Origin: Mya arenaria
Taxonomy: Eukaryota; Mollusca; Bivalvia; Myida; Myidae
DNA length: 64,000 nt
Direction of reading: 5' to 3'
Assembly (NCBI RefSeq): GCF_026914265.1
Contig: NC_069125.1
Location: 10,085,117 to 10,149,116, forward strand
Shown one piece after another: positions 8,628 to 33,894 of the stretch. A program made the translations under genes and the position numbers. Numbering within the stretch: position 1 is the stretch's first letter; every line of letters starts with the position of its first letter. The notes under the pieces were generated by a model, which was not told the origin of the DNA, ran no database searches, and saw nothing but the letters and a program-made list of their open reading frames with translations.

Positions 8628-8832
8628 ATGGTCGTTAGTGAAATTATATCTTACATTTTTTCCAACCCCTCTATTCTCATAGCTCTATTTTTACTATACT
8701 GTTTTGTCTATGGGTTGTCAATCTTGTTTTCGGGTCCGAAACCCGGACGGAACCCGTTTGCTGCTCGGTATGTCAGGCCTCCACCGCCGCTCGTTACCGA
8801 ACATTCGGAGAGATACAAGGTGCTCAAATACA
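8628..8832 (+). CDS. RETSAT: RETSAT exon 1
   Basis: Codes for the membrane-anchoring N-terminus and a proline-rich linker (YVRPPPPLV). It ends in TACA|GTAAGT, phase 1. The first codon is ATG in AAATCATGG. Confidence 0.88.
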
Positions 8833-11800
8833 GTAAGTTAAAAATGGAAGAAGTGTTTCTTTGTAAATTACTAACAATTAGCTGTATATATTTTGTTATG
8901 CACCAGCAGGCCAATTGTTACCACGGCCTCCCCAGGTCCAGGGAATAGCGAAGACTTTGGCTTTTGATCCAGCCAATCCCAGGAAAATCCTCTACAACCG
9001 TATATATAAACTCTAGAGGCGGGAATATCATATTACTAAATAAAGTACAAAACTATTTTTTTGGCCAAATGTTCCTACAAGAAATGTGCTAACTCATGAA
9101 GATATTGCAATGCAAGTTTTAATTGTGAACAAAAATAGGGGCGATACAATTTGCCGGTCCCGGTCTCATCCGGTCCCGGTCTCCTCCGGTCTCTGTTTTC
9201 AAAATTTTATTGTAGCTATCGGGCGTGATCGAGAAGGTGTGAATGACAGCGGGGGTAATAGGATTACAAAAGATTACAGTTAATTAAAACATTAGATATT
9301 TAATGATAATTATTTCACCATTTATTTCATATTTTATATCAATAAAACAAAAAATAAATTAAGGCAAAGATAAAAACATAATGTATGCACATGTTCTAAA
9401 ATTAATGTAATGAATAACAAACACATTGTGTTTTTTTTCCTTATTAAATTCAGTTATAAGTAAACTTTTGATAATAGTAATATAAATAGAAATGCAAGAA
9501 TACATGTAAATCAAATGTGTAAGTTAACTCAGTACTTCATAAATTCTAACATTTCTGTTTTGTTTAACTATTGATTTTGTTACAAGAGATGCAGTGCCAC
9601 GTCCAGTTCCTGCATGTTCTATTTTCGCAAATCACTATCGACGAATTCTAGCATTTCACATAAACAGAATGGTTAGTTTTTTTTAAAGTCTAAGGGATCG
9701 CGCCTTTTCATTTTCTTTATGCAACAGTTTTTTTATGTTTTCTAGACTGACTAGATGTTCCCTCATTTCACTGACAACGAGTTTGGCATAAGTATTTACA
9801 CAGTCAGATTTCTTAAACAGTTAGAGATTTATTGCAAACTTAAAGTTGACAAATAAAATATATTCTGCTAATGTTGTGTAATAATGACGAAGGTATTCGA
9901 ATTTATTCAATGTTAGCGAATAGCACAAAAAATATATACGAAAAATGGAGACGTAATGTTTTTCTTACTTAAGAATGGCGCAACTTCAAATAAACACTCT
10001 TCATCTAGTTGTAGATTTTGTGTACTTTTTCACCATTCATTGATTTACTTGTTTACATGCTATGAACACTGTATAATGTTTTACGCAATAAACATATCTT
10101 ATCGTAACGACATGCATGGGTTGGATATGCAACCATGGAAACGTTTTCAATTGTAATCATTGATTTTACACAATGCTTCAAATAGAACCGTGCACACTCA
10201 TAGCTGGACTGCTTAAACAATATTATGTGTGTTTGTTTTTAAACAGAAGAGAAAAACAATAAACCAACTTGACAAAACACAATTTAAAACGTGCAATTCT
10301 AAGTTTCTCCATACTCTAGCCGTCCTTAATCCTTTATTAAAAAAATGAACATTTTTATTGCCATTGCATCTTTCTCTACACTTTTAACAAATTGCATAAA
10401 TAGTTTAGGCCTATAACAAATTGCATAAATTAAGACATAATGTTTATATATGTTATTCTATTTTGTTACATATAAAAGCAAATAAGATTGTAAAATTAGT
10501 TTAACAAACATCGGCAACACAATCCGTCGCCTCGGGCCATAAGTTATGAACCGGGAATTATGAGACCGGATGAGACCGGATTTTACGAGGAGAGACCGGG
10601 AAATAGTATCGCCCCAAAAATAGTCCCTTACTCTAGCCTAACCCTATGTGATTATTTTTTCTCATCATGTTGCTGAATATAAAGTGGCTGCTGACTGTAA
10701 AGTGGTTGGTTGGTTGGTTGATTGGTTGGTTGGTTGGTAGGTTGGTTCAATGGATTAGTATTCAACTTATGTAAAATATATATTCAATAAACAAAGAAGA
10801 AGATTATCATAAAAAGTATTTCATTCCTGATATCAACCCAGTTATAAGTCAGTTACTGGTAAGCAGTATTGACTTGAAAAAGGCTGACCAGGTTGGTCAG
10901 CGAGCAGAAACTAAGCTTTCTTGTTACACTTTGTGCTTAAGTTTTACAACTGATCAATAGTATTCAACTAACATAAAAAATATTTAATTAAACTGACTAT
11001 TATGAAATGTTATGTCTGAATTATTTCCAGTTACATCGACAAAGTTACTGGTCAGCAGTACTAACTCAAAAAAGGCTGACCTCAAATAAGACTGACCAGG
11101 TTGGTCAGCGATATAAAGTACCGTAAATGACTGGGTATTAGACGCCCTTTTTTCCCTCAGATTTCGCTGCAAATAAATGTCTGCGTATAATACCCAGTAA
11201 CAATTTTTTAACTTTTATTCTCAGGTTGATTTCAAGCCAAGAGTTTGTTTAGATTTATGTAGAAAGGGATGTTACTTGCGTCATATTGATCGAGTATATA
11301 CAAGTTAAAACGGCAGTTGAAGATCGGGATACGGTATATCGTAAGACGTTTATAATTTAAACAAAAATATTTTTTGATTCAAGTTATTTAATATTATTTT
11401 GAATAATAAATTGAATTGAACAATAATTAAACTTGCATATAAAAAAGCAAAGTTGGGGACTGTCCTTTTTTTTTGTCAGCTGTTCGAGAAAGCGTGAAAA
11501 ACTCGACTACCTTTAACCTGTTTAACATACCAATACTACAAACTGTTGCGATAATGGTCTTGTTTTTTCGCACTTTGTCACATTCTTTATTCTTTTCTGT
11601 AGGTGTTGACATTTTGAAAATAAACCCGTACAATATAAGGTTTTTCCATAACTTAACTTTTCATTCACGACAGTTTATCATTGTATGGTTTTAAAGATAA
11701 CCGTGGCCATTTTCACAAAAAAAACTTTTTTTTGTCACTGTCTACAAACATGGTGGCCAAAAATGCCAGACAATTTGACATCTTTTCTATGCGTCTTTTA

Positions 11801-14800
11801 ACCAAAAACATAGATTAAAAGTTTTTTTCTTGGACTTTTCACAGATTTTTTTCCCTGCGTCTAATACCCCCTATCGTCTTATACCCAGTCATTTACGGTA
11901 CAATATCCACACAGCGTTAACAAAGTAATCAGCACAGCGACAATGCAAGGTTCAAATGGCAAAAACTTTTACTGTGTTGTCAGTAGAAATTTTTGAAATG
12001 AACTGACTCTGTTTCTTGCTATTAATTTTTAAAATTTGTAAGAACAACGTTGGACTTTTATCATCCCAGACAAACAATATTTTACCGTAATTCACCTAAG
12101 AGTTCGGACACCTTAAATTAATTATTTTCTTCGCTGTCCAAATACATAGAAAATTACCATTTTCACATTTTATTTACATGTTTGTTTAACCTGCCTTTTT
12201 TCTTCATATTTGCATTTTACCACTTGTTAATTTATCCGTAGTAATCAATGGTCATAAACTTATTTATTACGCCTATAAGTGTAAATCCTTCATCAAGTTA
12301 GTTAAAACACCATTTTATACATGCATTGAACTAAATTAACACATTCTATCGGCTTCAGATCAAAGAGTCACACTGTGTGACGTCACATAACATACAGTTA
12401 TACCCACGAGGATCTCGTGGAGAGCATGGACATTGCTATGCAGTATTAATGTATAACTGTACGATTATTGCTTCATACAGTCTATAAGTGTGGTACAAGT
12501 TTGAAAGTTTATTGGCAGATCGTTTTACAAACATGTCATGTCTATGTTTTCTTAATCCCTTGATTGCCCTTGTTGTTTATTTAATGCTTCAATAAATATA
12601 TCACACTTCCTTTTCAACAGGCAATAAATCGTTTAGGATGGGTAGTAACTAATTAACTTGTCACAGTGGTGTAACAATACGGTTAGGTAATCTAGCCAGG
12701 TATTGTAAAGATAAAAATCAATAATCTTCGTCTGTGAAACTTGGTAACTGTGAAAGTTATGATTGATGTCCTTTGGGTGTCCGAAAATTAGGTACGCAAA
12801 AGAAATTATTTTGGAAAATAATTATGGGTGTCCGAATATTTAGAGTGTCCAAACTCTTAGGTGAATTACAGTAACCTCATTTATAGAGCAAAAGCATAGT
12901 GAGTGTTCTGTAGCATTCTCCATAAGCAAACAGCATCGGCTGCAGCTAATAACAAATCGTTTTCAAGACTGCTGACAAAATTTCATATCACAGATTTTCA
13001 TATTTCTGTTCCAAAATTAATTTTTTATGCATTTTTCTTAAACTGTTAGTAAAGGTTTTAGCCATAAAACATTAATTTTGGAACGGAAATATGAATTTAT
13101 GCGATCTGTCAGCAGTCTTTTATCACTGGTTTGCAGATTTTGATGCAAAAAATACTCATTCCAAGACAAAAAATAAAAAAGTAGGAAAAATGGTAAATCT
13201 GTGAAAGTGCAGCTTTAATTCCCTAGTATTGCACAAAAATAGGATAGTGCTCAGTGTTTTTTTGGTGCAATTTACTGCCTTCTTAAGGCTGTTTCCCCTT
13301 TAACTACGTTAATGGATAAAAAACATTGAATTTCTTAAAAAATCAAAAAAATCTTGACAAGACTAACTGTTTCACAGTATAATGTATGCATAAAAAAGGG
13401 AAAACGTGTATATGCCATTATATAAGCAATTTTGGTATGATTTTCAATTTTACGAAAGGCAACTTTTTTTTCCAATTTGCAAGGCACAGGCGGATTTAAA
13501 AAAACAACAACCAATCTTCATCGATTTGTGAGAAAAATGATCAATTGTTTATGTTAGTTTATCCCTAGAAGTGAGTGTTGAAACATTTTCGCGATCCAAC
13601 TACAATCTTTTTTCAGACAATTGTACTGAATGACCGATTTTCCCTCAAAGTTGACTTTGGTATTTTATTCTGAATGGCATTGTGTTTAAATTCTGATATT
13701 CATTGCACTTCTTTCTTGGTGCTATTAAACTAAATTTATTATTTTGATTTTAACTCGGGAATTGTCCATTTAAATACTTTAGGAAACCATTGTCTTTCAG
13801 GATTCAAGCAAAACAGGATACCAGACGACATTGACACCATTATTGTTGGGAGTGGAATTGGCGGGTTGACCACGGCTGTGTTACTGGGGCGGGCCGGTCA
13901 TAAAGTTCTAGTTCTGGAACAACATGACCAGGCAGGCGGCTGCTGTCACACCTTTGTGGAAAAGGGATATGAGTTTGATACAGGTATTAATATTTATGCT
14001 TCTATTTATTTAAAATGGATGGTATTGATTAACTTAAGTAAGGGTCAACAAATTGCATGCACACTTGGTACCAGTAGATATATAGAGTTTATAGAGACCT
14101 TTCATGAGATTGTGTTTTGGGCCCCCAAGAGTTATGGTCACTGTTTACTTTTTACTTTTATTTTTTTTATTGATTTTGACAGGCACATACATCATTATTG
14201 TATTCACTTCTAAGACAAAGCGGCCTAGTGCGCTGTCTTACGACAGTTCTTGATATTTTATGTCTTCGATTTTTTTGTTATGATTTAATTATTGTTTATT
14301 GCATGAAGATACATTAAGGTTAAAGAAAAGCATAGACAAACACAACAGTGCAATGTAACATCTTTTAAGTTCATATAAAAAATAAAATGCAAAGGGTTTG
14401 GGCCACAAGTTGATGGCCCAACATCAGATACGGCCATTTCCCAGATTGTAATGTCTACTGCGTTAGCATGGCAGGCATATATGGATCATGTTGTCCAACA
14501 TCTGTGTCATCATCCTTGGCGGCACACTTTCATGTCAACTCCCCAATCTTTAGCAAACTTGGTCACAAAGTTTATTGGCATAATAGCTCATCTACTGAGT
14601 TGATGTAATAAAATCAGTAGATACATGACAAAATCTGATCATTATTTATTCAATAATATCTATAGGGGTTTACCTTAAGAGTTATGGGAAGTTGCAGCAC
14701 TGTGTCCTGTTTTGGTAACACCCATCTGGCTTCATGAGACCAGCATTGGCACCCTTCTGCCTTCATAGAATATTATGATAAAAAGTTAAAATATGGTAAT

Positions 14801-17800
14801 ACATAACAGTACATTCAAAATTTACATATTAAGCAGTTGAAACCTCATATTGCATTTGTTAAAAAACAAGTCTTACTTTTTTCTGTCAAATGCATATTGT
14901 TCACTGTTCTTCACAGCTCTTGTGCCATTGTCTCCCTTACCAATCTAAATCTGTCTCTCTGCAGCACCCTGTCCTTTTTAAAACCTGGCTAAAACTATGG
15001 TATAAACAATAACCATTTATGGCTCACAAAGTTTAAAATTGATAAAGTTGGCAATAATTTCTTATCTTTTGTCAAAATTTAATTCCTTTTTAAAAGATAG
15101 CTTAATTTTTCATTTATCAGGCATACACTATGTTGGTAAGATGATGGATGGTGACCAGACAAGAGTGTTCACAGATCAGGTGACAGAAGGGCAGGTTGTC
15201 TGGACTCCCATGGACAATGTCTTTGACACAGTGAGTGAAACAGACTAAGCACAGCCCTGCAGTGCGTTCAGTAAACATGTTCGCGACGAATGTTTGCTGT
15301 TTGGTTCCCGCTTTCAGTATATGCGCTGCGTTGCAACATGGATACAAAACAAAACGTTTGCTAGCATTTTGTAAACACTTGCCTTACTGAACGCACTGCT
15401 GGTATGATGGTACATGATCACCATAGGGTCAGACATCAAAATCTGAAATCTGAACAAAATGCTTATTTCAATGATAGTACAACATGAAAAGTTGGAATTT
15501 TAAGCTTTTATTTACAATTCTTTAAAATGGTACAGAAAATTCTCTATTTTTTGCCAAAAGCATTAGTAACGCTTTTTAGAATTAAATTATTTCGGGATTA
15601 GATTTACAAAATTCTGTTGCCTTGAGTGTCTGCCAGTTTCTGTTGATGTCTGGTTCTTGTTCATAAATTTAAATTTAATAAATCATGTTTAAAAAGAACA
15701 ATGATTTAATCCAATTATTCTGATTTTTAAAATATCTTACCATTTTTATCTGCTGTATTGTAGGTGACTTTGGGCCCGTCAGAGAAGGCCAAGTTTTACC
15801 CTCTCAAGTGTGGATCCAAGGAAGAGTTCGCTAGAAATGCTGAGGAACTTTTTCCCAAAGAGAAGAAAGCAATTGCTGAGTTCATGAAACTGCTTGATGT
15901 AAATATTCATCTGATTACACTTTTTAATGCACTGGAAGGAATGCATTAGCAACAAATTAAAGTCTATTAATTATACAGTCAAAACTCGCTATGTCGATGC
16001 CGTTGGGACCCCGGGAACTACTTCCAGATAATGAACATTCGATATAACAGAAATACAAAAAGTGTATGACTAAATCAAAATAAAAATCAACATAACCAGA
16101 ACATTGAGATAACAGAGTTTGACATAGCGAGTTTCGACTGTATGATTATTTTTCCCAAATAATAAACGTGTACACATTCTTAGTCTTGATTTCAAGCAAA
16201 GATAACTGATACCAATATCAACAGCTTTGATCTCTGTTCTACTGAAATGTTTGAAAGATAATAATTAAGCACAATTTTGGTAATTATGTCCCTAAAAGCT
16301 TAGTAAACATATATGAATATTACAACAAGTTTTAAGTATTAAATGTTTTATTATAACGTACAATCTATCATGTAAATTACTTTAAACGTAGTTTGTCTTA
16401 AAGGGGCTATACAGTACACCATATGAAAAAAAAAGAGAAAATTGTGGAAAACTGACATAAATTTGGTATATTTGTACAATGCATTGAAACTAACGTACTG
16501 AAGTACCACATAGTTGATACAACACTGGACTGCAGTTTTGGCGGCACCGGTTCGAACCTGGTCTCCGACATGATTTTTCTTAACATTTTGATTTTTTTTT
16601 TTATAATTATGATATCAAAGAGTAAAACATTTTATGAAATAATTGTCCTAAGATTTGTTACAGAAAAAACTGTTTTTGGTGCCAATCTGGTGTATAGTCC
16701 CTTTAAATCATAATCTTTCATTGATTTGATACAGGACTGCAGAGGTACATTCCTCGGAGTAATGGTCCCCAAGTTTCTGCCCCGCTGGCTGGCAATGCTG
16801 TCCATTAAGACAGGCATCTACCAACTTGTCATGAGAAAGTTCATGAGGCTGACAAAACTCACCGTGAAACAAGCCCTCGATGATTTGTCCGATGACCAGG
16901 AATTCAAAGCCTGCATGAGTTACATCTTTGGAGACATGGGTTAGTGACGTATAGATTTAAATTTTTAACGGCATTTCGTTGGTGGTATTTTTTGACTAGT
17001 AAAAGATTTATTTATCTTTTGAAATGACACTCCTTTCTTTGAAATGGGGCCCAGTCACAGAAGAATCTTAAGAAATTAAGAAAAATGAATTAACAGTGTA
17101 ATAATTTGATTTGTTTTATTTCCAAAAAATATTCTGCTTGAAGATTGTTATTTAATTTTTTTAAATTTCATATTTAAATAGAATATATATTACCCATAAC
17201 ATGCAAAACAGTTCAGGAAATTGTTGAATATAAGGATAATGTGGGTTTTTTTAACTTATATATATATATATAAAGATGCTTCTGTAATATTGGCCCTGAT
17301 GTTTGGAAAAGGTTGCAAATTCAATGCATTGTTCTTTAACATTATGTTTAATAGTATAAAATATTTCCATGTATCTTGGATACCAACTTCATGCTTAAAA
17401 CTTCTACAAAGTACACACACCTGGATGATATAGTACTCAAAAGTAAATCACACGTAGATGTACATATAAATGTCAGGTAGAATTTCGCAACTTGGCTATT
17501 CATTGAAAAAGTTTTTTTCCTTTCTTAAAACAATTATTTAAATACATGAATGAGAAATGGCATATGTTTTGTTAAACTTTTGACTGGGACATGTGTTCAT
17601 ACTTCAGGCGTTGTGCCGAGCAAGCTGAGCATGATGGGGTTTGCGACGGTGTTGAACCACTACATTCCGGGCTCATTCTACCCACTGGGGGGGACGAGCG
17701 AGATCGCGTTCCAGATTGTTCAGGTTATCGAGAAGTACGGGGGTCGTGTAATGGTGGATGCTCCCGTCTCTCAGATCCTCGTTAATGAGAAAGGCAGAGT

Positions 17801-20800
17801 GCATGGTAAGTCTTATTTGTTGACTCTGAAACATTTTGATTTGTCTTTATACTGGGGCTAAGTTTAGCCTCATACACACTCATAATGTTATCCATAATGT
17901 TAATATATATATATATATCTTTTATACTCATATATATATGTTCCGGTGTTCAAATTTCCATCGACAGAACATAAATTTTATAACCAATCACTTATACAGT
18001 GAAAACTCACTAAACCGGACAAGGTCCGGACCGGGGAAAATTTCCGGTTTAGTGAGGATTCCGGTTTAGTGAGGATTTGATGTACGGAGTAAGGTCAGAC
18101 GGAGGTTGAGACATGATTAAAGCACATGCAAAAGTGATAAACATATTTCTGCGTTTTTATAATCATCTTTTTTCCGAGTCTAAAAAAATAAAACAACTCG
18201 CGTAATTTAATGCTTGTTAAGTATATTGATATTTTAATCAACGCACCGCTCTAATTTGATTCACTCATAGAAGTCTTTAGATAAAACAACCCCCCAAAAT
18301 GATCACTTAATAACCGTTTCTAGTTCTTTATTTTCTACAACAAACAAATTAATGTCTCAATCAATTTTTCTTTTCACAAGTTTGATTAACGTTTGATTAT
18401 CGCGCGGCAGTCAATCCACAGCGGAATCATCATTATCGATTATCGAGTTATCACAACATCAAAGGTGCAATATTTAACGACGCACCGGCTGTCAAAACAA
18501 AGTGACACGCGATTCGCAAATTCCTAATACACAAAATCATTTTGACATGTTTGAACAAATAAACGTCCGGTTTTGCGAGGTAAAATAACGTTGACAACTA
18601 ACAAATTTTCTCGATTTTTTTGTCCGGTATCCGGAATTCCGAGGTTCCGGTTTTGTGGAGATTATTTTACATTGAAAAGTATAAGGGAAAAATCGGGACT
18701 CTGAAAAAAGTCCGGTATCCCGAGGATTCCGGTTTTGTGGAGATCCGGTTTAGCGAGGTTCCACTGTACTATTATACTACTGTAATTGTTTAACTCTGCA
18801 TTCTCTGCATTATAAGAGTCTTAAAGTTCACTTTTGTTTAGTAGTTTTCCAATCAACTGAGCACAAAAATAAACTGTATCCCTAAAATTAATGAATGGGG
18901 GAGGCGATTTATTTTGTCTGTGATCATTAAATTATCGCATAGAGGAGAATCACTATTTTCTTGATGGGAGTGTTGTTATAAATATAATTCGAGACATAAT
19001 ATGAAATATGTTTAGTATGTACCAGACCTTCATCTTTTGATATCTGTTTGCAGGTGTGCGTGTAAAGAAAAGTAGCGGAGAAATTGACATCTTTGCCAAG
19101 CGAGTCATATCTGATGCCGGGATTATCAACACTCTGAAGCACCTGCTTCCAAAAGAAGTTGCGGAGAAGAGTCGTAAGTAAAATGATTTAGATACATTTT
19201 ATGGCTGCCCATGGAAGCATATAGTATTCTGCTTTGATTGTCTATCCCTTTATCTGTTTGCTTTATGAAGAACTCAACTTCCATTAACTAGGTTTTTAGA
19301 ATTAAAAAGGATGTTTCATTGTTTCATTACTCTAAACTATTGTAATACAGTCGAACCTCTTTGGCTGGAACTCGCTTGGGTCAAATTTCTTGTTGGCTCG
19401 AACTGGAGGTAAAGGGTCGATTTCTTTGTACTGACAGTAAAATTTCCCGCTTGGCTCGAATTTTCCAAGGCTCGAGGTATTTTGCTGGTCCCTGGGAGTT
19501 CGTGCCAACGGGGTTCGACTGTATGAAGCAAGATTGGATAAGAAACAGCTAAGCAGTTGACCATTAGGGTTATTGAAATATGTGATATAAAATTAAAAAA
19601 GCCCCCTTTGTAGAAATACCTATGTAACAAACTGCACATATTGCTATTAGAATTTATCAGGGATCGAGCCCATGACGTCTTGCTCTGCAGGTGGACTCTC
19701 TACCGTATCATTATAAAAGCTAGTTCTGTAGTGAAACAGTATAAGTGCTGCAATGTACATAGCAATCAACACAGTAACACATTCCCCTCCTTTTGAAATT
19801 TGTCCTCTTATTTTGATGATAAAGGACAATTTGCACTGACCTTGAGATTTATCGTGCAACATCGTGTTTTTAACTTTGTGTGCCAAATTGACATGTGCAT
19901 ATGTCAGGGATCTAACCCACATCACTATAACAGCTTGCTTCATAAAGACAGTATAAGTGCCACTATATATATATATATTTATATATATACATCGCATACC
20001 TGGTAACACTTATACTCAAAGTTATAACAATTTTAGATTTGTTGCTGTTCTATTAGTACCCATGACCTCCAATATTTCAGCAATCTACCCGATGCTTGGT
20101 CAGCAGCTTAAGCCAAGTGTCTCATATCTGACAGCCTTCATAGGCCTGGAAGGATCCCAGGAAGAACTGCAGCTACCCAAGGGAAACTTCTGGTCATTCT
20201 GCAAGTAGGTTACAGAAATTTAACTTTTCTAATAAACATGTCTGTTTGTTTAAAAACAAAAGAATAAAAGGTTTTTGTCAAAGCCTATGCTTTGTCATTT
20301 TATTAACCAGGTTTTCACATAGTGGGGCGGGCGGCCGGGTGGCGTCAAACTCACCTATGAAACTGAATAACTTTAGTAAGGGTTGACATATCTTGACCAA
20401 ACTTGGTCTATAGAAAGACTTTATGGGTACCTTTCATGGGATTGCATTTGGGGTCCCTAGGGTCAAGGTCAAGGTCATTGTTACTAAAAATAGAAAAACG
20501 GTTGAAACTGAATAACTTTAGTTAGGGATGACATTATGTTGATTAAACTTGGTGTATAGGAAGAGTGTATGGAGACCTTTCATGGGATTGCGTTTGGGGT
20601 CTCTAGGGTCAAGGTGAAGGTTACTGTTACTAAAAATAGAAAAACAGTTGAAACTGAATAACTTTAGTTAGGGATTACATATCTTGACTAAACTTGGTCA
20701 ATAGGAAGAGTTTATGGAGACCTTTCATGGGATTGCGTTTGGGGTCCCTAGGGTCAAGGTCAAGGGCACTGTTACTAAAAAAGAAAAACAGTTGAAACTG

Positions 20801-23800
20801 AATAACTTTAGTTAGGGTTGACATATCTTTACCAAACTTGGTCAATAGGAAGAGTTTATGGAGACCTTTCATCGGATTGCGTTTGGGGTCCCTAGGTTCA
20901 AGGTCAAGGTGACTGTTACTAAAAATAGAAAAACAGTTGAAACTGAGTAACTTTAGTTAGGGTTGACATATCTTGACCAAACTTGGTCTATAGGAAGAGT
21001 TTATGGAGACCTTTCATCGGATTGCGTTTGGGGTCCCTAGGTTCAAGGTCAAGGTGACTGTTACTAAAAATAGAAAAACAGTTGAAACTGAGTAACTTTA
21101 GTTAGGGTTGACATATCTTGACCAAACTTGGTCTATAGGAAGAGTTTATGGATACCTTTCATGGGATTGCGTTTGGGGTCCCTAGGGTCAAGGTCACTGT
21201 TACTTAAAATAGAAAAATGGTTCAAACTGAATATCTTTAATTAGGGTTGACATATCTTGACCAAACTTGGTCTATAGTAAGAGTTTATGGATACTTTCAT
21301 GGGCTTGCGTTTTGGGGTCCCTAGATTCAAGGTCAAGGTCACTGTTACTAAAAATGGAAAAATGGTTGAAACTGAATAACTTAAGTTAGGGTTGACATAT
21401 CCTGACCCAACTTGGTATAAAGGAAGAGTTTATGGATACCTTTCAATGGATTGCATTTGGGGTCCCTAGGGTCAAGGTCACTGTTACTAAAAATAGAAAA
21501 ACAGACATAGGCTGAAGTTCTATTGTCAATCATTAAAAACCTGGTTTAGTTGCATTGCGGCGTTTCTTGTTTGATGTTTTATCTATTTAAAGTGTGACAC
21601 AGTTACTCCTAAAATGTGTTTTTAGATATTAAATATTTGGGATCCATGGCAGAATAGTGATTTTACCGATCATTATGTGTTGGAGCTGCAATTAATGTTT
21701 TGAGTTATGATGAACTGAAATAATACTCCTCTGTGAACTTAAGTTATGCCCCATTTAAACTGAAGTTATTCCCCAGGAGGAACAAAAGTTATTCCCATTA
21801 TTGAGCCCTTTATGCCCTTTGGTGAACTGAGGTTATTCACATTGGTGAATGAAAGTTATTCCCCTTGGTGAAGTTATGTTATTCTGCTTGGTGAACTGAA
21901 GTAATACACCTTTATTAAACTGAAGTTCTGCCCACAGGTGAACTAAGGTTATTCCCCTTGTTGAACTGAAACTATGCCCTTTTGGGATCATAAGTTATGC
22001 CCCTTGGTGATCTGATGTCTCCCCAATAATGTGGAGACATATTGTTTATGATTGAGGTGTCTCTCCATCCGTCCAGTTTGTGTCCGTTCCATATCTTTTG
22101 AACCTTTTAAAGGATTTGAAATAACTTGACACAAATGATCACCATATTGAGACATTGCGCAGAGGGGGGAGACATCAGTTTAAAGTCTATTTAACACTGG
22201 TATTCTCCATTTCTAGTGCAAATTTTGAGGATGACCTGGAGGCATATGTGAAAATGTCAGTGGAAGAGGCTGCTGACGGAGAGGTCCCGCTAATGTTCAC
22301 CTCATTTCCATCAGCTAAGGATGCTGCATGGGAGGAGAAAAACCCAGGTATACATATGATTTTCAATAGTACTTATTATAGTAATTATTTTTTACTTCAA
22401 ATGTCATAGTATTTTCCTATTATTTGTCATGTGTTGTAGGCCTCAATCTCGGCATTTGTGTCCTGCAAAAAATATTTGGTAATGTTTGCCATATGACAAA
22501 AAAGTTGAATATATTAATAATATGAATGTTGATATTTGTATTTAGATTGACAATAGGCATGTGATGATGTGAAGCAAGCCACATTACTCATGCCTGACTA
22601 TTTCTTGAGTGTTGCTTCTAGATCACCAGGGGTCCTTTTGAAAAGGCTTTTCAATAAAGATCTTAGTCGTTTTAAGTCGAAAATTGAAATTATCTTAGTG
22701 TCATATTTTTTTTGGTATTTTGCTACATATTTGAGTGAGTTAAACAATGAAAAATTGATGGAATAATAAAATTCAATGTATTGCCATTTGGGACTAATAG
22801 ATCCTTTAGAAAGATATATCATTGTATATTGTTCATGGATTGTCAAAAGGTCTGATAAGCCCTTTTTGTTCTCTATGGTGATAATTATGTTATTCTTTAA
22901 TGAAAGTCAGTTGCCATAGTAATCATGTTGTTGCTATGGAAATGTAACACTATGAGCATCTTCACTATTTTTTAGAAATCAAAAATCCTGTGTACAAGTT
23001 TATATGTTGAATTTCAGAGTAGTCTTCTGCCTTGGTAATCAAGCTGTTGCCATGGAAACATACCACAATGAGAAGGTTTACTATTTCAGAGGAAATCTGA
23101 TGCCTTATGTTCATGCATTTATATTGTATTTCCAGGGAAGTCAGTTGCCTTAGTAATCACACTGTTGCCATGGGAATGGTTTAGTCGCTGGGAGACGGAA
23201 AAGATCAAACATAGGGGAGATGACTATAACGGCCTGAAGATGAGGATCGGACAACAGATGTGGCGACAGCTTGAGAACATGTTCCCTAAACTACAGGGCA
23301 AGGTGGCAATGGTTTCTTATTTAAATGCCAGATGGTACTAAAAGACATTCAAATATACAAAAACATACATATGCTTTAGTGGTTTTGTAAATTCTGGCAT
23401 TAACTCGAATGTTGGCCTTAACTTGTTAACTGTTAAAGATTTTTACCTGAAGCTTACACATTATGACATGCACGCAATACACAAAAGCATAGGCGCAGTA
23501 AGTCCTGTCACTTCTTGAGAATGTTTAGAAAAAACCTTTCAATGTGCTTATTATTTTACACAGTTGATTAAAGAACTCATTTAATCCCTACACCTTTCCT
23601 CAGACGCCTGTCCAACAAGTACTACTTGTGCAAGCCAATAACTTGTTCTCTCAAAGATAAAACTCTATACTGATAAGAATTGTGTGTTCTATGAAACTTC
23701 ATGAAAGTACTCACTTATTTCAATGGAGTACCTAGATGTGGGTACTCCTTTGTCCAACAAGTGCTACCTGTGTTAGCAAATAACTTGTTCTCTCAAAAAT

Positions 23801-26800
23801 AGAACTCTATACTGATAAGAAATGTTTGTTATATGAAACTTGAAAAAGTACTCACTTATTTTAATCGAGTAGATGTTGGTACTCCCTAGTCCAACATGTT
23901 CTACCATAGTCAGCCAATTGCTTTGTTCAGTGTGAAATAGGACACTGTAATGATAAGACACGCTGGTTACATGAAAATTGGTTAAAGTTTTCACTTATTC
24001 AGATTGAATACCTATATGTGGGTACTCCATTGTCCAATGGGTTCTCCCATTGTAACCAATTACTATGTTCAGTGTGAGATTGGACACCATACTGATGAGA
24101 CATTTTTGTTGCATAAAAATTGCTCAATTTTTCAGATAAAGTACTTAGATGCGGCTACTTTTTTGTCCCATAAGTACTACCTGGACCAGCCAATTACCTT
24201 GTTCAGTACTCCTTTATCCAAAAAGTACTACCTTGGCAAGCCAATTACCTTGTTCAGTTCTCTTTTATCCAACAAGTACTACCTGGGCCAGTCAATTACC
24301 TTGTTCAGTTCTCCTTTATCCAAAAAGTACTACCTGGTCCAGCCAATTACCTTGTTCAGTACTCCTTTATCCAAAAAGTACTACCTGGGTCAGCCAATTA
24401 CCTTGTTCAGTTCTCCTTTATCCAAAAAGTACTACCTTGGCCAGCCAATTACCTTGTTCAGTTGTCCTTTATCCAACAAGTACTACCTTGGCCAGCCAAT
24501 TACCTTGTTCAGTTGTCCTTTATCCAACAAGTACTACCTGGGCAAACCAATTACCTTGTTCAGTACTCCTTTATCCAACAAGTACTACCTTGGCCAGCCA
24601 ATTACCTTGTTCAGTTGTCCTTTATCCAACAAGTACTACCTGGGCAAACCAATTACCTTGTTCAGTACTCTTTTATCCAACAAGTACTACCTGGGCCAGT
24701 CAATTACCATGTTCAGTTCTCCTTTATCCAAAAAGTACTACCTGGTCCAGCCAATTACCTTGTTCAGTTCTCATTTATCCAAAAAGTACTATCTGGGTCA
24801 GCCAATTACCTTGTTCAGTTCTCCTTTATCCTAAAAGTACTACCTTGGCCAGCCAATTACCTTGTTCAGTACTCCTTTATCCAACAAGTACTACCTTGGC
24901 AAGCCAATTTCCTTGTTCAGTACTCCTTTATCCAACAAGTACTACCTTGGCAAGCCAATTACCTTGTTCAGTACTCCTTTATCCTAAAAGTACTACCTTG
25001 GCCAGCCAATTACCTTGTTCAGTACTCCTTTATCCAACAAGTACTACCTTGGCCAGCCAATTACCTTGTTCAGTTGTCCTTTATCCAACAAGTACTACCT
25101 GGGCCAGCCAATTACCATGTTCAGTTGTCCTTTATCCAACAAGTACTACCTGGGCAAACCAATTACCTTGTTCAGTACTCCTTTATCCAACAAGTACTAC
25201 CTGGGCCAGCCAATTACCTTGTTCAGTACTCCTTTATTCAACAAGTACTACCTTGGCCAGCCAATTACCTTGTTCAGTACTCCTTTATTCAACAAGTACT
25301 ACCTGGGCCAGCCAATTACCTTGTTCAGTACTCCTTTATCCAACAAGTACTACCTGGGCCAGCCAATTACCTTGTTCAGTACTCCTTTATCCAAAAAGTA
25401 CTACCTTGGCCAGCCAATTACCTTGTTCAGTACTCCTTTATCCAACAAGTACTACCTTGGCCAGCCAATTACCTTGTTCAATTTTCCTTTACCCAACAAG
25501 TACTACCTGGGCAAACCAATTACCTTGTTCAGTACTCTTTTATCCTAAAAGTACTACCTGGGCCAGCCAATTACCTTGTTCAGTTCTCCTTTATCCAAAA
25601 AGTATACCAGGGCCAGCCAATTACCTTGTTCAGTTCTCTTTTATCCAACAAGTACTACCTGGGCCAGTCAATTACCTTGTTCAGTTCTCCTTTATCCAAA
25701 AAGTACTACCTGGGTCAGTTGATTACCAATAATATGCTCACTAATTCAGATGACCTACCTAGATGTGGGTACTCCCCTATCCAACAAGTACTACCTAGGC
25801 CAGTCCGAGGGAGAGATGTATGGCCTTGACCACAACATTGATCGCTTCCTGCCAGAGGTCTCCATGGAACTGAGGCCTGAGTCTGGTATCAAGGGGTTAT
25901 ACTTTACAGGTAAGACATGCCTCGGACCTAAGAGTTTGTAGGTTTGATATCCACCAGGGACTTTCCCTTGGTTCTTAGCTGATTCCACAATCCAGCTAAA
26001 GTAAATAGTATAAACTAAGACATCTTTGATGAATGCACACACTTCTTATGAACTATGTATGTATTTTAGACCTTGCGGTCAAGGTTAACCCGTGAAAGTG
26101 CAAGTACTTTTTCCAACAGGGTCCTTTGTTTTTGCTGAAGGGACAGCATGTGGAAGAGACAGTGGTGGAATACAAGAAAGTCTGGGTGCTATACCCTAGC
26201 TCTTTTTCAAAGAGACTCCTTGGTTCTTTTATGTGCTCGGTGTAAAGCACCGATACACAGGGTACAACTTGGTTAAACCAGTTCTGAGTACACCACTTTT
26301 CCAAGCACTACCCTTTAAATGCCAAGCGCCAGGCAAGGGAGCTACTTGTACCAACTTTTAACGTCTTTTGGTATGACGCGGCCAGGGATCGAACTTACGT
26401 CCTCCCGCTCCATATTTGAAAAGTACTTTAACTTAAATTGTAAAGTGTGAATGTAGTATTACCTTCAAAGTATGCAATTTAAGTGGGTTATATTCATTTA
26501 TCAGTAATGAAAAACCTGATATGAGTTAACAATTGTACCTACTTATGAACATACACACTTACAAAGCTACACTCTTGTCATTGTTCCCACTTTGATAGAA
26601 TGACATTTTTGGTAACATTTACACTTTAAAGATTACCTTGCCTCTTAAAACACTTTCTAAAGTGAATGCAATCTGACATACAGTCAGTCTTGTGACCAGA
26701 CATTTTTATTGGTCCACTATGTGATGAGTATATCCCAATTCAAGAACAGAAATTTTCACAGTTTTATTGTGTTTTTCAGGCCAGGATATTCTGACGTGTG

Positions 26801-26928
26801 GCTTCAGCGGAGCGATGCATGCCGGGCTGTTGACTGCCTCAAAAGTTCTCCACAGGAACCTGCTCAATGACCTGACGGCAGTCACCAAGGAAGTACGAGC
26901 TAGCAACAAGAAGGTGAAAACAGAGTGA
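8628..26928 (+). CDS. RETSAT: All-trans-retinol 13,14-reductase (RetSat), 12 exons
   Basis: This flavoprotein family saturates the C13-C14 double bond of all-trans-retinol, giving 13,14-dihydroretinol, at the ER membrane. Coding exons: 8628-8832, 13801-13983, 15121-15230, 15764-15898, 16735-16939, 17608-17805, 19054-19173, 20081-20204, 22217-22347, 23136-23302, 25750-25909, 26780-26928. They join in frame into 628 residues with GT-AG introns, close to the usual ~610. The N-terminus is hydrophobic (about residues 5-34), fitting an ER anchor or signal. Exon 2 has the dinucleotide-binding fingerprint GSGIGG (85-90) ending in [10 protein letters not shown]. Later exons carry the phytoene-desaturase-like signature, including [11 protein letters not shown] and the C-terminal [17 protein letters not shown]. 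The start is the first ATG before the hydrophobic segment. Introns hold many transposons; introns 9 and 10 hold tandem copies of the following exon's 5' end. Orthology within the RetSat/CrtI-like family is strong by order and length, but the reaction is inferred. Confidence 0.93.
8899..9000. mobile_element. GC-rich MITE fragment in RETSAT intron 1
   Basis: Starts TGCACCAGCAGGCCAATTGT and follows the element at 90-356 for about 90 bases, then stops; the far terminus is missing. It begins only 66 bases after exon 1. Confidence 0.7.
9139..10614. mobile_element. Mutator-like non-autonomous element in RETSAT intron 1
   Basis: Termini GGGCGATAC and GTATCGCCC are perfect inverted copies. The flanks CAAAAATAG (9130-9138) and CAAAAATAG (10615-10623) form a perfect 9-bp target duplication, as Mutator-superfamily elements make. 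Both subterminal regions carry repeats of CCGGTCTC in inverted orientation, possible transposase-binding sites. The interior is AT-rich with no transposase. Confidence 0.75.
10700..10750. repeat. (GGTT)n microsatellite
   Basis: About ten GGTT units with single-base changes. Confidence 0.9.
10745..11115. repeat. Two-copy tandem duplication, ~200 bp
   Basis: Both copies run from TAGTATTCAACT to GACCAGGTTGGTCAGCGA, with AAAAAGGCTGACC before the end. The end motif CTGACCAGGTTGGTCAG is itself palindromic. Confidence 0.7.
11121..11898. mobile_element. TA-flanked MITE with CCGTAAATGACTGGG ends
   Basis: The ends are CCGTAAATGACTGGGTATTA and the inverted copy ATACCCAGTCATTTACGG, with TA on both sides, as for Tc1/mariner-type insertion. 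No transposase frame is present. Confidence 0.75.
12085..12871. mobile_element. TA-flanked MITE with CCGTAATTCACC ends
   Basis: The ends CCGTAATTCACCTAAGAGTT and inverted AACTCTTAGGTGAATTACAG are flanked by TA (12083-12084, 12872-12873). It is similar in size to the element 180 bases upstream and shares the outer CCGTAA, but differs inside. Confidence 0.75.
12965..13215. mobile_element. Hairpin (foldback) element, copy 1
   Basis: Bases 12965-13119 form two arms of ~65 nt ending in AAGACTGCTGACAAA and its inverse GTCAGCAGTCTT, around a ~35-nt loop. A ~95-base tail follows (to GTGCAGCTTTAAT). A second copy lies at 57426-57695. Confidence 0.75.
13240..13300. repeat. Short dispersed repeat, inverse copy near 35030-35088
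   Basis: TTTTTTTGGTGCAATTTACT through GGCTGTTTCCCC matches the reverse complement of 35038-35088 with few changes. Confidence 0.6.
13801..13983 (+). CDS. RETSAT: RETSAT exon 2 (FAD-binding fingerprint)
   Basis: Acceptor TGTCTTTCAG. Codes [15 protein letters not shown] through KGYEFDTG; donor ACAG|GTATTA, phase 1. Confidence 0.95.
14057..14160 (+). repeat. Diverged single unit of the ~150-bp repeat family
   Basis: Carries ACTTGGTACC..., GAGTTTATAGAGACCTTTCA and GTTATGGTCACTGTTTACT in the order seen in the array at 20337-21506. Confidence 0.5.
14680..14995. repeat. Dispersed repeat, related to 37060-37385
   Basis: Shares the cores TTCTGCCTTCATA and CCTTTTTAAAACCTGG / CCTTTTTAAAACTTGG with 37060-37385, similarly spaced. 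The alignment is patchy. Confidence 0.4.
15121..15230 (+). CDS. RETSAT: RETSAT exon 3
   Basis: Acceptor CATTTATCAG; codes [19 protein letters not shown] to DNVFDT; donor GACACA|GTGAGT, phase 0. Confidence 0.92.
15259..15399. mobile_element. 141-bp MITE with perfect 16-bp inverted ends
   Basis: Ends GCAGTGCGTTCAGTAA and TTACTGAACGCACTGC are perfect inverted copies. It starts 28 bases into intron 3. Confidence 0.8.
15764..15898 (+). CDS. RETSAT: RETSAT exon 4
   Basis: Acceptor GCTGTATTGTAG; codes [15 protein letters not shown] to EFMKLLD; donor CTTGAT|GTAAAT, phase 0. Confidence 0.9.
15974..16142. mobile_element. TACAGT-type MITE in RETSAT intron 4
   Basis: The ends TACAGTCAAAACTCGCTATG and inverted CATAGCGAGTTTCGACTGTA bound 169 bases; TA is the likely target. 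Same end style as 17995 and 19346 but a different subfamily. Confidence 0.8.
16398..16706 (+). mobile_element. TIR-bounded element containing a tRNA-like Pol III promoter
   Basis: The ends TTAAAGGGGCTATACA and TGTATAGTCCCTTTAA are inverted (one mismatch). Inside, 16518-16570 has a tRNA-like segment: an A-box-like TAGTTGATACAACACTGG and a B-box GGTTCGAACC. It could be a MITE that captured a SINE or a SINE with inverted ends. Confidence 0.6.
16735..16939 (+). CDS. RETSAT: RETSAT exon 5
   Basis: Acceptor TTGATACAG; codes [20 protein letters not shown] to MSYIFGDMG; donor ATGG|GTTAGT, phase 1. Confidence 0.92.
17608..17805 (+). CDS. RETSAT: RETSAT exon 6
   Basis: Acceptor CATACTTCAG; codes [18 protein letters not shown], then the conserved [15 protein letters not shown]; donor CATG|GTAAGT, phase 1. 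It is more GC-rich than neighbouring exons. Confidence 0.95.
17995..18768. mobile_element. TACAGT-type MITE with CCGGTTTAGTGAGG repeats in RETSAT intron 6
   Basis: The ends TACAGTGAAAACTCACTAAA and inverted CGAGGTTCCACTGTA bound about 774 bases. Subterminal TTCCGGTTTAGTGAGGATT occurs twice at the left, and variants (TTCCGGTTTTGTGGAGAT) occur at the right. No transposase seen. Confidence 0.8.
19054..19173 (+). CDS. RETSAT: RETSAT exon 7
   Basis: Acceptor TGTTTGCAG; codes [20 protein letters not shown] to KEVAEKS; donor AGTC|GTAAGT, phase 1. Confidence 0.9.
19346..19523. mobile_element. TACAGTCGAACC MITE in RETSAT intron 7
   Basis: The ends TACAGTCGAACCTCTTTGGC and inverted CCAACGGGGTTCGACTGTA bound 178 bases. 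A second copy is at 58699-58866 and an end fragment at 56543-56577. Confidence 0.8.
19655..19960 (-). mobile_element. tRNA-derived SINE heads, two in tandem
   Basis: On the - strand, B-box-like GGGCTCGATCCCTGA (about 19657-19671) and GGGTTAGATCCCTGAC (about 19905-19920) each follow tRNA-like sequence. Both heads are preceded in that orientation by GCACTTATACTGT-like sequence. Confidence 0.5.
19962..19993. repeat. (TA)n-rich microsatellite
   Basis: Interrupted TATATA run about 90 bases before the exon 8 acceptor. Confidence 0.8.
20081..20204 (+). CDS. RETSAT: RETSAT exon 8
   Basis: Acceptor AATATTTCAG; codes [20 protein letters not shown] to NFWSFC; donor TGCAA|GTAGGT, phase 2. Confidence 0.9.
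20337..21506 (+). repeat. ~150-bp tandem repeat, about 8 copies, in RETSAT intron 8
   Basis: Each unit runs GTTGAAACTGAATAACTTTA, GTTGACATATCTTGACCAAA, CCTTTCATGGGATTGCGTTT, GGGTCCCTAGGGTCAAGGTC, CACTGTTACTAAAAATAGAA. Copies differ by a few percent and small indels. Same family as 6890-7235. Confidence 0.9.
21700..22020 (+). repeat. Degenerate ~33-bp tandem repeat
   Basis: Variants of GTGAACTGAAGTTATTCCCC / TTGGTGAA recur about nine times with much divergence, just before exon 9. Confidence 0.6.
22217..22347 (+). CDS. RETSAT: RETSAT exon 9
   Basis: Acceptor CCATTTCTAG; codes [20 protein letters not shown] to WEEKNPG; donor CCAG|GTATAC, phase 1. Confidence 0.9.
22900..23135 (+). repeat. Two diverged tandem copies of the RETSAT exon 10 5' end (intron 9)
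   Basis: Copy 1 (about 22902-22946) reads AGTCAGTTGCCATAGTAATC... and copy 2 (about 23018-23062) reads ...CTGCCTTGGTAATCAAGCTG. The real exon 10 reads AGTCAGTTGCCTTAGTAATC.... Spacing is ~117 bases, and the intervening sequence also aligns, including the ATTTCAG acceptor region. The period is thus an old tandem duplication of intron end plus exon start. Confidence 0.75.
23136..23302 (+). CDS. RETSAT: RETSAT exon 10
   Basis: Acceptor TTGTATTTCCAG; codes [20 protein letters not shown] to NMFPKLQGK; donor GGCAAG|GTGGCA, phase 0. Its first ~45 bases have two diverged copies upstream in intron 9. Confidence 0.9.
23597..24150 (+). repeat. Older ~135-bp tandem copies of intron 10 end plus RETSAT exon 11 start
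   Basis: Five copies start near 23597, 23719, 23862, 24000 and 24134. They keep sequence such as GAGTACCTAGATGTGGGTAC followed by TCCTTTGTCCAACAAGTGCT, i.e. the opening of exon 11 (CTACCTAGATGTGGGTACTC), and several keep a preceding TTCAG. They are more diverged than the 51-bp units that follow. Confidence 0.8.
24170..25735 (+). repeat. 51-bp minisatellite, about 30 copies, derived from RETSAT exon 11
   Basis: The unit is CAATTACCTTGTTCAG joined to TACTCCTTTATCCAACAAGT and ACTACCTGGGCCAGC. The second part matches exon 11 (ACTCCCCTATCCAACAAGTACTACCTAGGCCAG at 25773-25805), and the first part resembles the intron end before exon 11. In exon frame it reads [17 protein letters not shown], 17 residues. 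Three units carry TAA in that frame (about 24832, 24985, 25544), and one unit near 25600 has a 1-base deletion. Because 51 is a multiple of 3, all three forward frames stay open for hundreds of codons; these are not genes. Confidence 0.9.
25750..25909 (+). CDS. RETSAT: RETSAT exon 11
   Basis: Acceptor CTCACTAATTCAG. Codes [20 protein letters not shown] through IKGLYFTG; donor TACAG|GTAAGA, phase 1. The nearer AG (CCTACCTAG at 25764) is out of phase with exon 10, so 25750 is preferred. The block [11 protein letters not shown] is the unit amplified upstream. Confidence 0.88.
25940..26415 (-). mobile_element. Bivalve-type tRNA-derived SINE, - strand
   Basis: Read on the - strand, the head has a B-box (AAGTTCGATCCCTGG, about 26386-26400), and the body runs through CAAGTAGCTCCCTTGCCTGG and ACCAAGTTGTACCCTGTGTA. 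Long SINE-like repeats of this kind are widespread in bivalves; that link is from memory of the family. It lies in RETSAT intron 11. Confidence 0.5.
26780..26928 (+). CDS. RETSAT: RETSAT exon 12 (C-terminus)
   Basis: Acceptor GTGTTTTTCAG; codes [20 protein letters not shown] to KKVKTE and TGA at 26926-26928. The GFSGAMHAG stretch is the C-terminal FAD-proximal motif of this oxidoreductase family. Confidence 0.93.
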
Positions 26929-29810: not shown

Positions 29811-29929
29811 AGAATGTCACTTTAAACATTCAAAGGTATACAAGTGTGTCTGTTGTTATGGATTGCATCAGTTACACCAATGATTCACATGATAGGTTGA
29901 TAACTGATGTTCACAGTTATGATGACATA

Positions 29930-32625
29930 TCACTTCTGTAATAAACTGACTCTACATAATACCATAATACTGTATGTGATATCACATCACTGCTGTAATA
30001 AATTGATTCTACATAATACTATATGCGATAACACTAATTCTACATAATACTGTATGTGATAACACATCACTGCTGTAATAAACTGATGCTACATAATACT
30101 GTATATGATAACACATCACTGCTGTAAAAAACTAATTCTACATAATACTATATAATATGGGATAACACATCACTGCTGTAATAAACTAATTCTACATAAT
30201 ACTATATAATATGGGATAACACATCACTGCTGTAATAAACTGATTCTACATAATACTATATAATATGGGATAACACATCACTGCTGTAATAATCTGATTC
30301 TACATAATACTATATAATATGGGATAACACATCACTACTGTAATAAACTGATTCTACATAATACTATATAAACTGATTCTACATAATACTATATAATATG
30401 GGATAACACATCACTGCTGTAATAAACTGATTCTACATAATACTATATGTGATAACACATCACTGCTGTAATAAACTGATTCTACATAATACTATATGTG
30501 ATAACACATCACTGCTGTAATAAACTGATTCTACATAATACTATATAATATGTGATAACACATCACTGCTGTAATAAACTGATTCTACATAATACTATAT
30601 AATATGGGATAACACATCACTGCTGTAATAAACTGATTCTACATAATACTATATAATATGGGATAACACATCACTGCTGTAATAATCTGATTCTACATAA
30701 TACTATATAATATGGGATAACACATCACTACTGTAATAAACTGATTCTACATAATACTATATGGGATAACACATCACTGCTGTAATAAACTGATTCTACA
30801 TAATATGGAATAACACATCACTACTGTAATAAACTGATTCTACATAATACTATATAATATGGGATAACACATCACTGCTGTAATAAACTGATTCTACATA
30901 ATACTATATAATATGGGATAACACATCACTGCTGTAATAAACTGATTCTACATAATACTATATAATATGTGATAACACATCACTGCTGTAATAAACTGAT
31001 TCTACATAATACTATATAATATGGGATAACACATCACTACTGTAATAAACTGATTGTACATAATACTATATGGGATAACACATCACTGATTTAATAAACT
31101 GATTATACATATTATTGTATGTGATAACACATCACTGCTGTAATAAACTGATGCTACATAATACTGTATGTGATAACACATCACTGCTGTAATAAACTGA
31201 TTCTACATAATACTATATAATATGGGATAACACATCACTGCTGTAATAAACTGATTCTACATAATACTATATAATATGGGATAACACATCACTGCTGTAA
31301 TAAACTGATGCTACATAATACTGTATATGATAACACATCACTGCTGTAATAAACTAATTCTACATAATACTATATAATATGGGATAACACATCACTGCTG
31401 TAAAAAACTAATTCTACATAATACTATATAATATGGGATAACACATCACTGCTGTAATAAACTAATTCTACATAATACTATATAATATGTGATAACACAT
31501 CACTACTGTAATAAACTGATTCTACATAATACTATATAATATGGGATAACACATCACTGCTGTAATAAACTGATTCTACATAATACTATATAATATGGGA
31601 TAACACATCACTACTGTAATAAACTGATTCTACATAATACTATATAAACTGATTCTACATAATACTATATAATATGGGATAACACATCACTACTGTAATA
31701 AACTGATTCTACATAATACTATATGGGATAACACATCACTGCTGTAATAAACTGATTCTACATAATACTATATAATATGTGATAACACATCACTGCTGTA
31801 ATAAACTGATTCTACATAATACTATATAATATGGGATAACACATCACTGCTGTAATAAACTGATTCTACATAATACTATATAATATGGGATAACACATCA
31901 CTGCTGTAATAAACTGATTCTACATAATACTATATAATATGGGATAACACATCACTGCTGTAATAATCTGATTCTACATAATACTATATAATATGGGATA
32001 ACACATCACTACTGTAATAAACTGATTCTACATAATATTATATGTGATAACTCATCACTGCTGTAATAAACTGATTCTACATAATAATGTATGTGATAAT
32101 GCATCACTGCTGTAATAAACTGATTCTACATAATACTATATGGGATAACACATCGCTGCTGTAATAAACTGATTCTACATACTATTGTATGCGATAACAC
32201 ATCACTGCTGTAATAAACTGATTCTACATAATACTATATGTGATAACACATCACTGCTGTAATAAACTGATTCTACATAATACTATATAATATGGGATAA
32301 CACATCACTACTGTAATAAACTGATTGTACATAATACTATATGGGATAACACATCACTGATTTAATAAACTGATTCTACATATTATTGTATGTGATAACA
32401 CATCACTGCTGTAATAAACTGATTCTACATAATAATGTATGTGATAACTCATCACTGCTGTAATAAACTGATTCTACATAATAATGTATGTGATAACACA
32501 TCACTGCTGTAATAAACTGATTCTACATAATACTGTATGTGATATCACATCACTGCTGTAATAAACGGATTCTACATAATACTGTATATGATAACCCATT
32601 ACTCCTGTAATAAATGATGTATGCT
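29930..32625 (+). repeat. 54-bp satellite array, about 50 copies
   Basis: The main unit is GGGATAACACATCACTGCTG, TAATAAACTGATTCTACATA, ATACTATATAATAT. A shorter variant lacks about 8 bases (TATATGTGATAACAC junction). Blocks of near-identical multi-unit strings recur, indicating recent local homogenisation. Edge units are more diverged. Every unit carries TAATAAA and stops in all frames, so it is non-coding. Confidence 0.95.
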
Positions 32626-33080
32626 TTTCTGTAATAAACTGAAGCTCCTTAATATTATTAGTATGTCATATCACATCATTGCTGTTATGAACACTTCTTT
32701 AATGGTGCATCATTACTGTCAATATACATTTGTATAACATCTTTGTTGCCAATAATTAATAATATGGTAAATACATCACATCATATCTCATCACTGCTGT
32801 GATAAATAAAAAAAATGATGTGATATTACATCACTGTTGTCAATAAATAGTGGAGTATTGCTTTAAGTATGTCATATCAGGTCATTGCTGTTTTGAACAC
32901 AGCATTTAATGGTGCAAGTCTACTGTCAATGTAAAGCAACTTTGTTGCCAATAATAAATGATATGGTAAACACATCACATTATATCTCATCACTATTGTG
33001 TTAAATAAAAAAAATGGTGTGATATCACATCACTGTTGTCAATAAATAGTGCAGTATTGCTTTTCTCCAGTATATAACAG
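32626..33080 (+). repeat. Diverged satellite-related repeats, two long copies
   Basis: Two ~190-base copies share GTCATATCA..TCATTGCTGTT, TTGCCAATAAT and GATATCACATCACTGTTGTC. The GTGATATCACATCACTG core links them to the 54-bp array. Confidence 0.7.
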
Positions 33081-33525: not shown

Positions 33526-33894
33526 TTACAACCTCTCGAAATGTAATGGTTTCTACCCCAGGAAACGGACTCGAGAGTGATTCTATAAGCTATCAACTTA
33601 CGTTAAAATCAAGCTTAAAGAAATGATTATAAACTAACTCCCTCAGATGATATTTTAATGCGGATATTGAGCTGGTAGAAACTTCTTATTTTATATTGAC
33701 CATATTAAAAGGCCATCAACTGCAGCAAGTATCTAAGATTAAGTCAAACCATTGGTGATAAAGCAAGAAATAGTGTGCGAAACTGTACGTTATATACAGA
33801 AGTAATTGATTTAGTTATGAAAGCGTGGGTTTTATAATGTTTACTCGTTGAATTAAACTAGTCAAGGAAATAGCTTTAAATTCTTCAAACAGAA

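Follow-up and report, generated by a model that had tools for sequence, protein, structure and literature searches.

A mirage-like minisatellite at the intron 10/exon 11 junction of a RetSat-like gene in the bivalve Mya arenaria

Introduction

Minisatellite-like tandem duplications that lie over an intron/exon boundary have been described in amphioxus under the name of mirages, in the genes BflGb6, BflGb9, Adh3, TnC and PGBD5 (PMC3087553, PMC3902484). The mirage of BflGb6 lies on the acceptor side and combines the end of the intron with the start of exon 2 (150-160 bp), and that of BflGb9 takes the 3'-exon-boundary form. AG or GT signals are present in many, though not all, of the units and the authentic exon is intact. 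Splicing is reported there as undisturbed for the globin, Adh3 and troponin C mirages, and this is suggested for PGBD5 (PMC3087553, PMC3902484). Related repeats are known from human genes. In genes of segmental duplications internal tandem repeats sit at exon-intron boundaries and can create new introns (PMC2812944), and the IFI6 (6-16) gene carries a minisatellite with multiple splice donors, of which two repeat units are used as donors (Turri 1995, as cited in PMC4526556). Tandem genomic duplication also underlies the Rogers model of intron gain, as it is cited in PMC3087553. Here we describe a 64 kb stretch of the genome of the bivalve Mya arenaria, referred to below as the window (contig C4, 10085117-10149116), in which intron 10 of a RetSat-like gene contains about 30 copies of a 51-bp unit that appears to derive from the adjoining exon 11.

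Results

A 51-bp array in intron 10 that matches exon 11

The features on which the analysis centres are as follows, in coordinates of the window.

8628..26928, plus strand: RetSat-like gene, 12 coding exons, coding sequence (CDS) of 1887 nt (628 aa and stop), 11 of 11 introns GT-AG
23303..25749, plus strand: intron 10 (phase 0), with the low-scoring donor AAG/GTGGCA (the slash marks the splice junction)
23597..24206, plus strand: five old long copies, L0-L4, of the end of intron 10 and the start of exon 11
24207..25684, plus strand: 29 short units, each of 34 bp from exon 11 and 17 bp of intron-derived spacer
25685..25749, plus strand: partial final unit, merging into the real intron end CTCACTAATTCAG
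25750..25909, plus strand: exon 11, the source of the array (source segment 25756-25803)

When the 12 exons are joined the gene reads as a single open frame of 628 codons. The encoded protein matched the Pfam Amino_oxidase family (1.3e-18) and the carotenoid isomerase model TIGR02730 of NCBIfam (3.4e-36, residues 80-594), the latter with 125 bits, which is far below the cut-off of 586.9 bits. RetSat was the name given to the gene in the initial annotation, and it presumably fits.

Tandem Repeats Finder (TRF) placed the array at 24172-25718, with a period of 51, 30.4 copies and 92% matches. Segmentation at the recurrent CAG gave 28 units of 51 bp and one of 50 bp, in good agreement with the estimate of about 30 units made in the initial annotation. 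The short units have a mean pairwise identity of 0.919, and 23 of the 29 are distinct in sequence, which excludes a single-unit assembly stutter. Counting the last long copy with them, 26 of the 30 segments end exactly in CAATTACCTTGTTCAG, and the spacer ends in CAG, except for one short unit in which it ends in CAA. The consensus of the units is identical to exon 11 at 31 of 34 positions (25770-25803), followed by agreement at only 3 of the next 17, and individual short units match at 26-31 of the 34. A comparison with shuffled controls had been chosen beforehand as the test of this match; the best of 5000 shuffles of the consensus reached 22 of 34. The best 34-mers in a comparison with the whole CDS also fell in the 25770-25803 region of exon 11, and the match that had been noticed between the units and this exon is therefore well founded.

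The 51-bp unit corresponds to 17 codons and is open in several frames. We considered a coding repeat and rejected it, as reading on from any of the 31 acceptor-like sites runs into a stop, and 30 of these sites are out of frame with exon 11. The array has no visible coding role.

Older copies of the junction

Upstream of the short units lie the five long copies, anchored at 23611, 23753, 23890, 24033 and 24166 and thus spaced by 142, 137, 143 and 133 bp. Five older copies of about 135 bp had been proposed here, and blastn confirmed them, with 74-95% identity to exon 11 or its junction over 19-69 bp. L1, L3 and L4 align across the junction (25737-25803). The first codons of exon 11, which the long copies were said to retain, are kept in some form in four of the five and are absent in the most 5' copy. 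When the exon 11 junction was compared with the rest of intron 10 the score was 65, against a maximum of 30 in 200 dinucleotide shuffles, supporting an origin of the repeats from this junction.

The long copies also clarify what happened to the splice site. Of four acceptor homologues two keep the AG, namely TCACTTATTCAG before 24003 and GCTCAATTTTTCAG before 24136, and the AG was lost from the acceptor copy in the two long copies upstream of these sites. The spacer follows directly after the exon piece in the long copies, and the true acceptor copy is found 63-72 bp further on. The CAG of the short units is homologous to this spacer just 3' of the exon piece, and no true acceptor copy is left in the short unit. 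The short units combine exon and intron pieces, but without the junction itself. According to the alignment, the CAG of the short units does not descend from the exon 11 acceptor, and the initial view that every unit carries a sequence like the intron end, and with it the splice site of the exon, is not supported.

Direction and order of events

Exon 11 differs from the consensus of the short units at three positions, all of them synonymous (25% expected, P 0.016), which indicates that the array was derived from the exon. Each of the five long copies, in contrast, has two to eight nonsynonymous differences from exon 11, and this points to an exon that stayed under selection and to copies that did not. 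In the opposite direction, a satellite already present would have given rise to the exon, and the array would be older than the exon 11 sequence. The array and the exon share sequence, as such an origin requires, but identity alone gives no direction. Beyond the synonymous differences, three observations argue against it. The long copies hold the intron end and the exon in the order of the gene junction, a genome search with the long copies (1.216 Gb in 18 contigs) matched only themselves and exon 11, and the homologous stretch lies inside the family-level protein match to TIGR02730. A satellite origin of the exon is therefore highly improbable, and the direction from exon to array that had been proposed for this locus holds.

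Further attempts to date the exon motif or to check it independently gave no result. RetSat is single-copy in the genome search, where its 12 matches are its own 12 exons, so no paralogues could serve as a dating aid. A contig scan for prokaryote relatives, from which the age of the motif might be read, gave 18 stretches of which none was confirmed, and the three best alignments of a PDB search stop before exon 11, giving no independent check of the motif. We also considered a dispersed satellite or transposable element as the source. The array was found at its own locus only in one genome search, although this search scores the best candidates only and skips very common words, so that weak copies could escape it; with no second place for the array, and with long copies that match only themselves and exon 11, we rejected this origin.

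Two further features bear on the order of the events. At the Leu codon before Ser all long copies have G (TTG, CTG or TAG), and the exon and the short units have A (CTA or TTA), suggesting a split of the short units from the exon that was probably later than that of the long copies. The spacer CCAATTACCTTGTTCAG is common to short units and long copies, from which we infer that the short units arose from the youngest long copy and not in a separate event. Two rounds, first of old long copies and then of a young short array, had already been envisaged in the initial annotation and agree with these data. Within the array, units with identical sequence lie far apart (by segment number 3 and 30; 4 and 12; 8, 10 and 20; 9 and 18; 21 and 24), and point to block duplication.

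Taken together, we consider it very probable that intron 10 contains an intronic minisatellite of the mirage type, formed by ordinary local tandem duplications over splice junctions and subsequent minisatellite expansion. In the first step, which the homology shows, a tandem duplication of about 140 bp took in both sides of the intron 10/exon 11 junction. Its outermost 3' copy continued to serve as the real acceptor and exon; those further in turned into intron and decayed, and repetition of this step gave the five long copies. In the second step, suggested by the alignment, a deletion in a copy near the exon would have removed the true acceptor copy together with the exon's first codons, so that 34 bp of exon and 17 bp of spacer remained as a 51-bp unit in which the intron spacer now abuts the exon piece. 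Slippage or unequal exchange may then have produced the approximately 30 copies, with block duplications within the array. The array is presumably spliced out together with intron 10, and it may be tolerated because the exon and the last acceptor are untouched.

Several observations weigh against this scenario. For the order of the steps there is one sequence to go by, with 34 comparable bases, and the removal of the array with intron 10 is a presumption. The similarity between adjacent units does not significantly exceed that in random order (P 0.155), so slippage from neighbour to neighbour is not demonstrated. The genome search with the long copies failed to list the short array, though blastn shows the similarity, and it can therefore miss weak copies elsewhere. 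Finally, a small local score matrix ranks every one of the 31 unit sites above the real exon 11 acceptor (unit mean 4.9, range 0.0 to 7.3), which sits uneasily with simple neutrality.

Splice-site scores

This last observation raises the question of whether the array regulates splicing, with some 30 acceptor-like sites competing with a weak real acceptor to give transcripts with an early stop and the level of RetSat being tuned by repeat number. The exon 11 acceptor scored -0.7, the weakest of the 11 RetSat acceptors, and the intron 10 donor is also low (1.1). Use of any of the 31 unit sites would lead to a premature stop, at 25827 for 28 of them, at 25730 for two and at 24832 for one. Among 673 other intronic AGs only 6.7% reach the unit mean; 42% score at or above the real acceptor, however, so the ranking mainly shows that the acceptor is poor by this matrix, which was built from only 10-11 RetSat acceptors, so that the result is a lead. 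An RNA fold of six units gave no unusual structure (z -1.2). The absence of disturbed splicing reported for the amphioxus globin, Adh3 and troponin C mirages (PMC3087553, PMC3902484) also speaks against such a role, as does the same anatomy arising elsewhere, in intron 9 and in ALDH genes as described below. We therefore regard a regulatory function as unlikely, and a mirage-type minisatellite without such a function as the better explanation of the array.

Junction copies in intron 9 and in other genes

A second junction of the gene shows the same kind of duplication.

22885..23181, plus strand: 3' end of intron 9 with the start of exon 10, in two decayed tandem copies, and the real junction
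23136..23302, plus strand: exon 10

The two copies, at 22904-22944 and 23003-23058, lie at offsets of 234 and 117 (a period of about 117 bp) and have 85% and 79% identity by blastn. The nearer aligns across 23120-23176, the farther only by blastn, over 23138-23178. In a scan of the junctions acceptor 10 scored 52 against a shuffle maximum of 24, and the copies also appear in a scan for local duplications. Own-intron copies were seen at two of the 22 RetSat junctions, acceptors 10 and 11, and none at the remaining 20 (z <= 2.4), with intron 1 scanned over 4000 bases per side.

Could tandem duplication in this genome strike preferentially at splice junctions, for example through breaks linked to transcription or splicing? 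Such targeting would fit the finding of copies at two neighbouring junctions of the same gene. With low complexity masked, the local-duplication scan found 11 clusters in the 64 kb, of which two span RetSat junctions, and no covered bases in three shuffles; in the other RetSat introns 1400 of 13179 bases (10.6%) lie in such clusters. When 11 footprints of one period each were placed at random in 20000 trials, 0.47 clusters were expected on RetSat junctions, and at least two did so in 7.9% of trials. The two junction hits are thus compatible with random placement (P 0.079), and targeting is not needed to account for them.

Two other repeats of the window were noted. A tandem array of 3 kb with mixed periods (54, 49 and 108 bp) lies downstream of the gene at 29913-33073. 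A tandem unit of about 140 bp, containing TGAAACTGAATAACTTTAG, has 8 copies in intron 8 (20346-21513) and 2.3 copies 13 kb away (6920-7212).

Other genes of the same genome were surveyed through matches to the families Aldedh (19 of 19 matches examined), myosin (30 of 96), AMP-binding (17 of 17) and kinesin (0 of 132). This gives 66 matches in 45 distinct groups from three families of one genome, in which only copies of exons or their edges were sought. Clear boundary copies were observed at two of the 19 Aldedh exon matches (L019 and L021), both on the donor side.

L019 1237-1527 (contig C6), minus strand: array at an ALDH exon, 37-bp unit, 7.9 copies by TRF

The L019 unit repeats the last ~24 bases of the exon with the donor, and six further CAG/GTAA sites occur at offsets of 37, 74, 148, 185, 222 and 259 from the presumed true donor. 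L021 has a single old donor-side copy, identical at 57 of 76 aligned bases with 18 gap positions, which runs through TTATACAG/GT. A third Aldedh match, L031, was left uncounted; by eye it looks like a decayed copy that takes in more of the exon than the edge. Among the myosin matches L046 is a candidate only, with a short acceptor-side copy (25 bp, 88%) that was also seen by eye in L051; the scan flagged one of the seven loci of the L046 group. The myosin pairs L042/L043 and L062/L063 were rejected, their repeats being confined to the intron. No boundary copies were found in the 17 AMP-binding matches, nor in eight presumably gamma-glutamyltranspeptidase-like open reading frame (ORF) pieces of the window that were chosen by eye.

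Among its 66 matches the survey thus adds two clear cases, both at donors, and one short candidate at an acceptor. These again might be taken in favour of targeting, but selection should purge duplications within exons and only exon copies and edges were sought, so that junction cases are favoured from the outset. We consider preferential targeting improbable, if slightly less so than a regulatory role. Together with intron 9, the two ALDH exons suggest instead that such repeats are a recurrent by-product of local tandem duplication and not peculiar to exon 11, and "unusual", the word used in the initial annotation, is too strong for a repeat with parallels in the same gene, in ALDH and in the amphioxus mirages. 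It is possible, though we hold this only tentatively and below even chance, that tandem duplications over splice junctions are pervasive throughout this bivalve genome, on the acceptor as well as the donor side, and affect a few per cent of its exons. If so, RetSat and ALDH would carry ready-made arrays of splice sites whose number varies between alleles, a natural laboratory in which to study both the choice of one site from dozens of near-copies and the growth, sliding or gain of introns.

The myosin exon matches also include closely similar pairs at distant places of one contig, for example at 46.57-46.76 Mb and 60.71-60.90 Mb of C7. The two members of a pair point in opposite directions on C7 and C1 and in one direction on C2, C4 and C3; such pairs may be either large duplications or leftover second haplotypes.

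Elsewhere in the window, two closely similar intronless ORFs lie 13.9 kb apart on the plus strand (33880-34647 and 47765-48523). They are presumably short-chain dehydrogenase-like, and the minus-strand gene that spans the second is presumably a gamma-glutamyltranspeptidase. The ORFs at 3679-4954 (plus strand) and 48765-50869 (minus strand) have the look of reverse transcriptase and endonuclease of non-long-terminal-repeat (non-LTR) elements.

Discussion

The kind of repeat found in RetSat is already known, but rarely reported. In the literature searched, which left out most subscription journals, and within the text available, we found no report beyond the amphioxus mirages and the related human class; PMC4039745 and PMC6823432 do not describe the same phenomenon.

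The human boundary repeats share with RetSat a minisatellite expansion at an exon-intron boundary that alters gene structure. Those described in PMC2812944 are found in recent paralogues, whereas the RetSat intron pre-existed and the gene is single-copy in the genome search. A human parallel for the ALDH exon L019 is IFI6, since in both the units of a minisatellite carry donors, putative in L019, beside an exon. The use of two repeat units as donors is stated for IFI6 in PMC4526556; the extra donors of L019 are candidates for such use. With the Rogers model, as cited in PMC3087553, our case shares a tandem duplication involving splice signals. Unlike in that model, the RetSat copies hold the end of the existing intron 10 and extend it, and create no new intron position.

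The amphioxus mirages are the closest relatives. As in amphioxus, tandem units hold intron and exon sequence over the real junction, here in the long copies L1, L3 and L4 and in the nearer intron 9 copy. The authentic exon and splice site are likewise intact outside the array, with an open CDS and GT-AG introns. Several units also carry cryptic splice signals (31 sites scored), although the CAG of the short units is not homologous to the true acceptor. By these features, RetSat intron 10 has the anatomy of a mirage. It differs in its host, a bivalve, in the passage from long junction copies to a shortened 51-bp unit that lacks the true acceptor and reached about 30 copies, and in the involvement of two adjacent introns of one gene. 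The amphioxus mirages are known with splicing, haplotype and somatic data, whereas the RetSat case comes from the sequence of one assembly.

To the amphioxus mirages our analysis adds a second animal group, and it shows that such repeats recur both within one gene and in other genes of one genome. It also gives a probable history for a unit that was shortened and lost its original acceptor. That RetSat introns 9 and 10 and two ALDH exons share this anatomy suggests that, in some animal genomes, local tandem duplication may have such repeats as a general consequence. Arrays of many near-identical acceptor-like sites, as in RetSat, or of donor sites, as in ALDH, would offer a direct test ground for splice-site choice and intron growth.

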